A stretch of 64,000 nucleotides of DNA from contig CADABQ010000001.1 in the NCBI GenBank assembly GCA_902786205.1, positions 1 through 64,000 on the forward strand, written 5' to 3'. The DNA is from an uncultured Lachnospiraceae bacterium. Lineage in GTDB: Bacteria; Bacillota; Clostridia; Lachnospirales; Lachnospiraceae. Below the pieces are notes generated by a model. That model had not been told where the DNA came from, made no database searches, and saw only the letters and a program-made list of their open reading frames with translations. The position numbers and the translations under genes were made by a program. Positions 58,052 through 61,961 of the stretch are shown piece by piece. Numbering within the stretch: position 1 is the stretch's first letter; each line of letters opens with the position of its first letter.

Positions 58052-58708
58052 ATGGCAGTAAGTAGGATTGAAGAATTAATAGAAGATATATATGATTTTG
58101 TGGAAGAATGTAAGATGCAACCATTATCATCAACAAAGGTTATTGTGCCAAAAGATGAATTATATGATTTATTGGATGAATTGCGTTTACGCACACCAGA
58201 CGAAATAAAAAGATACAAGAAAATGTTAGAAAACAAGGATGCTATTTTACAGGATGCAGAGGCAAAAGCGAACGCTATGCTTGCGGAAGCACAGGATAAG
58301 ATGGATGCATTGGTGGACGAGCATCAGATTATGCAGCAGGCGTATGCACAAGCAGATCAGATTATTCAACAAGCACAGATGCAGGCAGAGCAGATGTTAT
58401 CATCCGCAGAAAATGATGCAAATCAGATTAGAACTGGTGCAATCAGCTATACATCAGATATGTTGATCGGATTGGAAAATATTATGGACAAATCGTATAA
58501 TGAATGCAGAATGCATTATGAGAGTCTTTTACATAATATGCAAGAAAATATGGAAATTGTACGTGCAAATCATCGTGAATTAACAGGAATGCCAGAATCG
58601 CCAGCTTCAGAAGAGACACCAATACCTGAGACTGAAGAAACTACAGATCAGGATGTTGTAAAACATGAAGGTGTAATTGATGATTATTCATATCCGGAAG
58701 AATATTAA
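58052..58708 (+). CDS. coiled-coil protein related to ATPase b/H-type subunits
   Basis: The 218-residue product begins with a conserved helical part (ISRIEELIEDIYDFVEECK-like, then VIVPKDELYDLLDELRLRTP). It continues as a long Ala/Gln-rich coiled coil (about 60-140; ILQDAEAKANAMLAEAQDKM) and ends in an acidic low-complexity tail. Similar proteins in this position are labelled ATPase because of likeness to F-type subunit b or V-type subunit H; no ATPase motif is seen. A DivIVA-like scaffold is another possibility. AGAGGAG precedes the ATG. Confidence 0.72.
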   Translation: MAVSRIEELIEDIYDFVEECKMQPLSSTKVIVPKDELYDLLDELRLRTPDEIKRYKKMLENKDAILQDAEAKANAMLAEAQDKMDALVDEHQIMQQAYAQADQIIQQAQMQAEQMLSSAENDANQIRTGAISYTSDMLIGLENIMDKSYNECRMHYESLLHNMQENMEIVRANHRELTGMPESPASEETPIPETEETTDQDVVKHEGVIDDYSYPEEY

Positions 58709-59632
58709 AAGCACTGTAATGGATAGGAATACAAATATACATTGCGTGATTTTGCATTGAATATATGTTTTTAAAGATAATCCTGACCCGGCAATGACGC
58801 TTTGTGTTTGGAATAGACTGGATAGTCCGCCAAATGCAGTACTTGTCAGGGTTAGGATTATTTTTATTTTAGTTGAAAAAGTGGAAATGCCCAGTTCGTA
58901 ACAAGCAGTAGTGATTTCTGTAAGAGAAAGGAGTCCATAGGTAAGAGGCTTTAAGGTAAGTGGAAGATTTAGTAAAAACATTGCAAGGATAGAGAAAAGT
59001 AATACATAACCACCGATTTTGATAATAGTGATAAATCCATCCAGTATTGCTTGATCGATTGCGTGTGCAAAAGATCGGGAGGCATTGTCTTTTGAAGTTT
59101 CTTTTAAAGAATGATTAAATGTTTTGCGCTTGAGAAATAGAATGCGGTAGAGAAAACTATTAAAAAAAGAGGAAGCGAGCAAAACGCAATATAATAAGTA
59201 TTTTATACGTGCATTTTGTAGACACTGAATGGAGAGGTAAGTTGTTAAAAACATAGGGCTTGGATTATTTACGAATGAGAGAAGATATTGTCCTTCAAGA
59301 GAAGATATTTTTCCCTCTTTTACTAAATCTGCACAGGCTTTTGCCCCCATAGGATAACCAGACATCATACCTATAAGGATAGGAAAGCAGCCATATTTGC
59401 TAACTTTAAATAAGGGATGTAAAATAGGGTAAAGCCAGTCTGTTAGGGAAAGAAGTAAATTTAAATTTAGGAAAAGATTCGAAACAATAATGAAGGGAAG
59501 TAAAGAAGGTATGATAGTGTAAATCCATAGGGTGATTCCCTTTTTTGCTCCTGCAAAACAGACTTCTGGTGAAAAAAATAAAATAAAAAGACAAAGCAAT
59601 GAGAAAAAGGATAGTATTTGTTTTTTTTTCAT
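58688..59632 (-). CDS. ylbJ: YlbJ-like sporulation integral membrane protein
   Basis: The 314-residue polytopic protein has about eight hydrophobic segments and the nucleoside-recognition (GATE) features of YlbJ: SLLPFIIVSNLF, ILIGMMSGYPMGAKACADLV and LLSFVNNPSPMFL. YlbJ is needed for sporulation in B. subtilis (about 408 residues), so this is a shorter member. GGGAGG lies seven bases before the ATG on the minus strand. Its 3' end overlaps the convergent coiled-coil gene by 21 bases. In Lachnospiraceae it commonly follows rsmD and coaD. Confidence 0.85.
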   Translation of the reverse strand: MKKKQILSFFSLLCLFILFFSPEVCFAGAKKGITLWIYTIIPSLLPFIIVSNLFLNLNLLLSLTDWLYPILHPLFKVSKYGCFPILIGMMSGYPMGAKACADLVKEGKISSLEGQYLLSFVNNPSPMFLTTYLSIQCLQNARIKYLLYCVLLASSFFNSFLYRILFLKRKTFNHSLKETSKDNASRSFAHAIDQAILDGFITIIKIGGYVLLFSILAMFLLNLPLTLKPLTYGLLSLTEITTACYELGISTFSTKIKIILTLTSTAFGGLSSLFQTQSVIAGSGLSLKTYIQCKITQCIFVFLSITVLLIFFRI

Positions 59633-59654
59633 TGAAAACCTCCCTTATGTTTTA

Positions 59655-59817
59655 ATGTATTCTCGGAATCTCCCTTGCACCCACTTTTGCGACTGTTTTT
59701 CCGCCAGCTATACACAAATTTAATCAACGTACGCTCCACGTACGCCTCATAAATTTTTGCATATCTGACAAAAAAACATTTTGCAAAATCAGGCACAAAG
59801 AGACTCCGAGAGTACAT
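59655..59817. mobile_element. MITE-like palindromic element without transposase
   Basis: Terminal inverted repeats of 18 bases (59655-59672 and 59800-59817) agree at 16 positions, and both differences are transitions that keep G-U pairing. Similarity continues inward for about ten more bases with one gap. The 127-base interior has the palindrome ATTTTGCAAAAT and a double ACGTACG. There is no transposase. A 62-codon frame on the minus strand runs through it but has no ribosome site. A structured RNA is the alternative. Confidence 0.5.
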
Positions 59818-60048
59818 ATTACTGTTCAGCTGATTAGATTTTTTTATAGTTTGCTCTTATTTAAAACTATGTAGAAAAGTATTGTAATATACTTATAATA
59901 GTTCAACTGGCAGGAATGCTTTTTGCAAGCAAAACTCTTTGCTTTGACAAAGAAATTGAATTATGCATTTAAGGAAGTTCCTGTAGAATTATAATATTTG
60001 TTTTAAATATTGCAACAGTTTCGTGGGTAAATAGAAAGAGGTGATAAA
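59818..60048. other. gene-free gap before mgtC
   Basis: This stretch holds no gene. It contains a TATAAT at 59894-59899 without a good -35 box, overlapping alternative hairpins around TTTTGCAAGCAAAA (about 59923-59937), a TTGACA at 59944-59949 without a matching -10, and the repeat TAGTTCAACTGGCA. It is probably the mgtC leader. Confidence 0.4.
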
Positions 60049-60767: not shown

Positions 60768-61961
60768 ATGGGAATGAATACAACACCAAAAGGAGAACGG
60801 GTGCATATTGCATTGTTTGGTAAAAGAAACGCCGGAAAATCCAGTCTGATCAATAAAATTACGGGACAGGAATTAGCTATCGTATCAGAAATCAAAGGAA
60901 CCACAACAGATCCGGTGTATAAGGCAATGGAGTTGTTGCCGCTTGGACCAGTTATGTTTGTGGATACCCCAGGTTTGGACGATGAGGGCGAACTTGGTGA
61001 AATGCGTATAGAGAAGACCAAGAAGGTTCTTAGGAAAACGGACATTGCAATCCTTGTAGTAGATGCAACAGACCAGGGAGATTTTAAATTAGAGGAGCAG
61101 CTGGAAAAAGAATTAAAGAAAAGACAAATAGCATGTTTATGGGTTTATAATAAAGCGGAATTGTTACAACAAAGAGATTCAAAGAAGCAAGGCATTTACT
61201 GTAGTACAAAGACGGAAGAAGGAATCGAAAAAATAAAAGAATGGATTGCTGCGCAAGTAGTAGATGCCGAGAAACAACCACTTGTGCAGGACCTGGTTGA
61301 AAAAGGTGATATGGTTATTTTAGTAGTACCAATTGATTCGGCTGCACCGAAAGGCAGATTGATATTACCACAGCAGCAGGTAATCCGTGATTTATTAGAA
61401 AAGGGCGCGATACCTATTGTCGTGAGAGATACAGAATTAGGTATTGTTTTGAAAAAACTTGGGAAAATGCCTAAGATGGTTATTACGGATTCGCAAGCAT
61501 TTGAACAGGTGGCAAAACAAGTACCAAAGGAGATACCATTGACCTCTTTTTCTATATTAATGGCTAGGTATAAGGGAAATTTAGCGCTTCTAGCGAAAAA
61601 TGCCGGAAAACTCGATACATTAAAGGATGGAGATGTGATACTGATGGCAGAAGGATGTACGCATCATAGACAATGTGATGATATTGGCACAGTCAAAATT
61701 CCAAAATGGATGCAGGCATATACAGGAAAAAAATTAATCTTTGAAACGGCAAGTGGTGGTGGATATCCGGATGATTTATCAAAATATGCTATGGTTGTAC
61801 ATTGTGGAGGCTGTATGTTGCCGGCACGCGAAATGCAATTTCGAATGAAGCATACATTGGAACAAAACACTGCGATCGTAAATTATGGAGTTTTGATTGC
61901 ATACATGAAAGGAATTGTGCAACGTAGTCTGCAACTTTTTCCAGAGTGTGGGAATGAGTAG
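60768..61961 (+). CDS. hydF: [FeFe] hydrogenase H-cluster maturation GTPase HydF
   Basis: HydF is the scaffold that carries the H-cluster precursor made by HydE and HydG and hands it to HydA. The 397 residues have a GTPase domain (G1 FGKRNAGKSSLIN, G2 KGTTTDPV, G3 DTPGLDDEGE) and a C-terminal Fe-S domain with C-x-H in GCTHHRQCDDIG (about residue 297) and HCGGC (about 345). hydE, hydG and hydA are not in the window. GAAGG precedes the ATG. Confidence 0.95.
   Translation: MGMNTTPKGERVHIALFGKRNAGKSSLINKITGQELAIVSEIKGTTTDPVYKAMELLPLGPVMFVDTPGLDDEGELGEMRIEKTKKVLRKTDIAILVVDATDQGDFKLEEQLEKELKKRQIACLWVYNKAELLQQRDSKKQGIYCSTKTEEGIEKIKEWIAAQVVDAEKQPLVQDLVEKGDMVILVVPIDSAAPKGRLILPQQQVIRDLLEKGAIPIVVRDTELGIVLKKLGKMPKMVITDSQAFEQVAKQVPKEIPLTSFSILMARYKGNLALLAKNAGKLDTLKDGDVILMAEGCTHHRQCDDIGTVKIPKWMQAYTGKKLIFETASGGGYPDDLSKYAMVVHCGGCMLPAREMQFRMKHTLEQNTAIVNYGVLIAYMKGIVQRSLQLFPECGNE

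Follow-up and report, generated by a model that had tools for sequence, protein, structure and literature searches.

A Hairpin-Forming MITE Family of Lachnospiraceae, Probably Mobilised in Trans, with Insertion at a Fixed Distance from AGGAGG

What kind of element is the 163-bp palindrome that occupies the 5' leader of ylbJ in a 64,000-nucleotide stretch of DNA from an uncultured Lachnospiraceae bacterium (this whole stretch is called the window hereafter), and what placed it there? A sequence-only reading had proposed either a mobile MITE or a structured RNA, located between ylbJ and mgtC. Profile matches agree with these neighbours: ylbJ was assigned by TIGR02871 (E 1e-52, which is under that model's curated cut-off), and the gene on the other side, on the plus strand, belongs to the MgtC family (PF02308). 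The gene after mgtC is hydF, for the [FeFe] hydrogenase maturation GTPase (window 60768-61961). The features of the locus are as follows.

59655..59817, minus strand: palindromic element, 163 bp, in the orientation of the best RNA fold; the family boundaries found by BLASTN fall exactly here
59800..59817, minus strand: terminal inverted repeat ATGTACTCTCGGAGTCTC, the 5' end in the RNA-like orientation
59655..59672, plus strand: the other terminal inverted repeat, ATGTATTCTCGGAATCTC
59726..59746, minus strand: conserved apical stem-loop GGCGTACGTGGAGCGTACGTT
59818..59821: 4-bp flank, TAAT when read on the minus strand, one side of a decayed target duplication
59651..59654: 4-bp flank, TAAA when read on the minus strand, the opposite side of the target duplication, adjoining the Shine-Dalgarno sequence
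59639..59644, minus strand: target hexamer GGGAGG, the Shine-Dalgarno sequence of ylbJ, at an offset of 10 nt from the element edge
58688..59632, minus strand: ylbJ (sporulation integral membrane protein YlbJ), with its start codon 22 nt from the element

The palindrome itself is as it had been described. Comparison of the two ends, ATGTATTCTCGGAATCTC and ATGTACTCTCGGAGTCTC (the reverse complement of 59800-59817), gave identity at 16 of 18 positions, both mismatches being transitions, and the doubled ACGTACG is present. The similarity noticed further inward turned out to be self-pairing through all 163 bp. Folded as RNA, the minus strand reaches -83.9 kcal/mol (z -11.2) and the plus strand -54.6 kcal/mol (z -8.3), and none of 200 shuffled sequences folds as well. 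In an Rfam search of the element no model scored above its gathering score, the best being microRNA precursor models far under their cut-off. A coding gene was also considered and rejected: the minus-strand frame beginning MYSRSLFVPD does exist, but of 75 full-length copies, 51 have a stop in the same frame after 13 codons, and the 62-aa frame of the element has no match in Pfam.

The element is not single-copy, and the condition named in the sequence-only reading as its refutation, one copy with nothing similar in relatives, does not hold. BLASTN against the same genome gave 73 matches at about 40 places, many of them bounded exactly as 59655-59817, and a search with the 18-base end added further copies, so that the source genome (G000) holds at least 43 dispersed copies. 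With up to 3 mismatches allowed, the 18-mer end matches 70 times, versus once for a reversed control. The conserved ends of the family are ATGTWCTCTCGGARTC, and the common ends ATGTACTCTCGGAGTCTC...GAGATTCCGAGAGTACAT are found in all copies, barring scattered substitutions and some truncated copies. The 4-mers flanking the copies (CTTA, CTTT, GATA, GCTA, TCAC, CAAT and others) vary between copies, but the two sides of one copy agree over exactly 4 bp. Such identical flanks are seen in 77 of 117 copies (own and relatives' copies pooled) against 1/256 by chance, and in 19 of the 26 own copies with good ends; in the window copy, TAAT and TAAA share three of four bases. The mobile half of the earlier proposal is borne out by these many copies with intact common ends and duplications. 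In kind, the element is short and multi-copy, has terminal inverted repeats and a target duplication, and carries no transposase gene, as is characteristic of a MITE.

Full length is 163 bp in the source genome, and shortened copies are numerous. Many have internal deletions by which one arm beside the apical CGTACG stem-loop is gone. At eight loci (L019, L020, L022, L023, L025, L027, L028 and L029) the deletions begin just 3' of this stem-loop, with endpoints that vary within the 3' arm. Long palindromes often shrink by internal deletion, and we infer that the arm-deleted copies arose by such shrinkage. Some copies shortened to 43-150 bp keep intact ends and target duplications, and two minimal copies of about 30 bp (L099:6923-6951 and L073:516-547) are barely more than both ends. 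There are also variants of about 217-233 bp (L131:3640-3863, L143:1016-1232 and L165:3572-3804), with intact ends and an extra palindrome-like stretch, GCATACCCAAGGGCATACC. At L255:1454-1660 and L126:7157-7324, an element lies directly beside or inside another copy.

Two points were missed in the sequence-only reading, namely the spread of the family across Lachnospiraceae and its precise insertion beside AGGAGG. As to the first, the end was found in 18 of 299 genomes of the family Lachnospiraceae, several of which have multiple paired ends 160-163 bp apart; related copies of this size are present in many genera. In a scan of public genomes, at least 111 stretches carried the end, and Lachnospiraceae accounted for most of them; carriers among the matches listed are Anaerobutyricum hallii, Clostridium citroniae, Clostridium fessum, Butyribacter, Falcatimonas and Hungatella. 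A variant end, ATGTTCTCTCGGA, has about 98 and about 67 matches in two congeners and few or none in four others. In a sample of 391 genomes of the class the source genome was the only match, a result that bounds the frequency of the element rather than its absence, since this sample held few family members and the pattern was exact. Length is 160-164 bp in 44 of 70 copies from other genera, despite a diverged interior. At least two interior sub-types can be distinguished, A (including the source genome) and B (G077, G001, G005, Butyribacter and others), and both keep the length, the apical stem and short motifs. At L134:9-2396, two type-B elements surround an ATP-grasp-like gene, a small gene and a possible C39-type peptidase gene (named from a look at the sequence only); the outer flanks are both TAAA, and neither element's own flanks match each other. 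The arrangement, about 2.4 kb long, may represent a composite transposon or may be due to chance. Searches of phage and plasmid collections matched three faecal contigs that lack annotation, and no plasmid. One IMG/VR viral contig has a single copy (L198:8610-8772) that is flanked by duplicated TAAA and has AGGAGG at offset 10, which may mean that phages carry the element, or that the contig is of host origin.

As to the second point, one flank of nearly every copy, in either orientation, reads as the 4-bp target duplication, six further bases and AGGAGG, with a start codon usually 4-9 bases beyond. When the best AGGAGG match was chosen within 30 bases on either side, with no offset preferred, it fell at offset 9-11 in 95 of 117 copies and at exactly 10 in 70. 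At least five of the six AGGAGG bases are matched at offset 9-11 in 97 of the 117 copies, versus 3.7% of positions drawn at random from the same DNA, and a perfect hexamer is there in 54 copies, versus 0.2%. Variant-end copies in congeners have it at offset 10 in 12 of 18 cases, and copies from other genera repeat the pattern. The hexamer is usually the Shine-Dalgarno sequence of a gene, so that the element stands about 21-26 nt before the start codon; the ribosome site and the gene are left intact, and about 10 bases separate hairpin from hexamer. With the elements set to their best-folding strand, the hexamer lies to the left or to the right about equally, and copies in the RNA-like sense and its opposite number 13 versus 10 in the source genome and 30 versus 32 in relatives. 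Since the hexamer is found on either side equally often, it is part of the target rather than of the element. In three cases (L012, L048 and L065) the copy is within an intrinsic terminator, away from any gene start, beside GGGAGG, AAGAGG or TGGAGA. These cases indicate that the hexamer sequence itself, not translation, is recognised, and the data thus point to a recognition step that reads the purine hexamer and does not require a gene.

The same placement might be expected if insertion were untargeted and only copies just upstream of a Shine-Dalgarno sequence survived, because selection would remove insertions within genes. We consider this extremely unlikely: selection would hardly yield an offset precise to 1 nt in most copies, many other neutral sites exist in intergenic DNA, and the same offset is kept beside GGAGG-like hexamers in terminators.

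Comparison with relatives gives some view of individual sites. In the congener G005, the same two genes, ylbJ and mgtC, are 81 bp apart, with AGGAGG intact and the element absent. Another congener, G001, has a 43-bp remnant (L244:1474-1516) with ends ATGTTATCTC.../...GAGAGAACAT directly upstream of the orthologous ylbJ, which may have arisen by a separate insertion at the target used by the window copy. Searches for empty sites by joining the two flanks found none among the loci examined, with one genome per species.

The structural half of the earlier proposal holds as well, in the sense of a structured nucleic acid. In an alignment of 30 sequences from both sub-types, 52 pairs are predicted, and 25 of them have changed on both sides and yet still pair, a finding that likewise goes beyond the sequence-only reading. 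Paired cells make up 95.7%, versus 85.1% when partners are shuffled and 41-57% when the structure is slid along the alignment, and the covariation score is 0.391 versus 0.194. The aligned sequences are related, so the shuffles overstate significance, whereas the slid controls carry the same relatedness and score far lower; a structure drawn from the same alignment is expected to beat its slid versions to some extent. The full-length hairpin has been maintained by compensatory substitution across genera, and it is likely that a folded single strand, RNA or DNA, matters. A second support is a bias of wobble pairs to one strand in sub-type A: its consensus has on one strand 12 G-U and 0 A-C pairs (p = 0.0005), and on its tree 62 versus 37 inferred Watson-Crick-to-wobble events favour one strand (p = 0.015). 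Recent changes in sub-type B have no strand bias (7 versus 12). A U-G wobble at column pair 48-117 is kept in 29 of the 30 sequences.

Such conservation raises the question of whether the element moves as a folded single-stranded copy, either ssDNA or RNA made from a host promoter, whose hairpin is recognised by a mobility protein; insertion into leaders would then guarantee transcription. The compensatory change along the whole stem, the type A wobble bias, the preserved U-G pair, the dominance of one length in other genera and the unbiased orientation relative to genes are all in keeping with this idea. It is nonetheless unlikely in our judgement, since a 4-bp duplication together with paired terminal repeats usually marks DDE transposition of double-stranded DNA, type B lacks the strand bias, and the 43-150-bp copies indicate that the full hairpin is dispensable, unless they shrank after insertion. 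Quite unlikely, too, is the specific form of it in which folded RNA or ssDNA is the substrate of a putative recombinase that reads AGGAGG, the element thus entering leaders without harm to genes. If true, this form would be a new mobility mechanism, not that of an ordinary IS-derived MITE.

Alternatively, the hairpin could have been domesticated to act in cis as a leader RNA, controlling or stabilising the mRNA downstream of it, for instance by serving as an RNase III site. Its location just upstream of the Shine-Dalgarno sequence, the strong hairpin on both strands and the structural covariation would suit such a role, and transcripts of Correia elements are cut by RNase III (PMC10969869). 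However, half of the copies run opposite to their gene, many have internal deletions, at least three are in terminators, and the orthologous ylbJ of G005 does without the element, so that this function is very unlikely. Since copies run with or against the gene in a proportion of about 50:50, the structure seems to be kept for mobility or a role in trans rather than for downstream regulation.

The probable explanation, in which we have good confidence, is a non-autonomous transposon of Lachnospiraceae, a MITE, that makes 4-bp duplications, inserts at a set offset from AGGAGG, depends on a transposase supplied in trans and keeps its hairpin for mobility. The mover is most likely a putative trans-acting transposase that recognises AGGAGG in DNA. 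In the simplest account, a DDE-type enzyme supplied in trans would bind the element ends, read the purine hexamer AGGAGG and make a 4-bp staggered cut at a fixed distance from it. Hairpins would thereby be placed in 5' leaders with the ribosome site intact, and targeting a sequence that precedes most genes may serve as a safe-harbour strategy. Retention of the hairpin would reflect a need for it in the mobility machinery or in an intermediate that is RNA or single-stranded.

Searches for an autonomous relative with the same ends were not exhaustive. No pair of ends was found around a transposase at spacings of 0.6-6 kb, and open reading frames near lone ends in about 140 loci revealed neither an autonomous copy nor a transposase with these ends. 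A scan for the insertion signature (4-bp duplication plus AGGAGG at offset 9-11) recovered only this MITE family and a few chance-like long pairs. Such ends were not adjacent to DDE_Tnp_1, rve, DDE_Tnp_1_6 or Y1_Tnp genes in up to eight carrier genomes, nor within 1.5 kb of Y1 transposase genes in six genomes, and none were found on the readable short contigs of the source genome, many of which are masked.

Transposons that spare their host usually aim at few sites, for example tRNA genes or attTn7. Targeting of the Shine-Dalgarno sequence offers hundreds to thousands of sites per genome, leaves genes intact and provides leaders with a strong hairpin. A literature search of partial coverage found no paper that ties a MITE or IS to a Shine-Dalgarno target. 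The element is a MITE in kind, and AGGAGG-anchored insertion is provisionally taken to be undescribed for any MITE or IS. Identification of the enzyme would provide a recombinase for insertion of DNA immediately before ribosome-binding sites, with which genes could be tagged or their expression tuned genome-wide in gut Lachnospiraceae, a group with a small genetic toolkit. In addition, individual copies serve as natural experiments on the effect that a long hairpin in the leader, about 10 nt 5' of the Shine-Dalgarno sequence, has on expression.

Several known systems resemble this family in part. The Correia elements (NEMIS/CREE) of Neisseria are, like the present family, short repeats in many copies that have terminal inverted repeats and fold into hairpins; they are transcribed together with genes, and RNase III can cleave them (PMC10969869). 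Sequence and host group are different, and the 4-bp duplications here are of varied sequence. Correia elements duplicate TA at the target, and we know of no tie between them and a Shine-Dalgarno sequence at a fixed distance. ERIC (RU-1) of enterobacteria are imperfect palindromes of about 127 bp between genes, mobile and non-autonomous (PMC2759123). They differ from the Lachnospiraceae element in sequence and size. To our knowledge, no AGGAGG-anchored target has been reported for ERIC. Identity with Correia, ERIC or RUP elements was rejected on the ends ATGTWCTCTCGGA, judged against the ends generally described for those elements, and on the varied 4-bp duplications. REP/REPIN sequences moved by RAYT (Y1), for which the marks applied were an adjacent Y1 transposase gene and no target duplication, were rejected since 4-bp duplications are made here and no element ends lie within 1.5 kb of the Y1 genes found in six genomes. 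RUP, BOX and SPRITE of Streptococcus pneumoniae are likewise small interspersed base-paired repeats, RUP being MITE-like. They are enriched in the gaps between convergent genes, away from upstream sequence (PMC3049150), which is the opposite of the placement of the Lachnospiraceae family. Site-specific DNA transposons such as Tn7, which is named with attTn7 in PMC10969869, are similar in a target choice that spares genes. Tn7, however, goes to a single chromosomal site with the help of a protein dedicated to target selection, whereas the Lachnospiraceae element uses a hexamer that precedes most genes.
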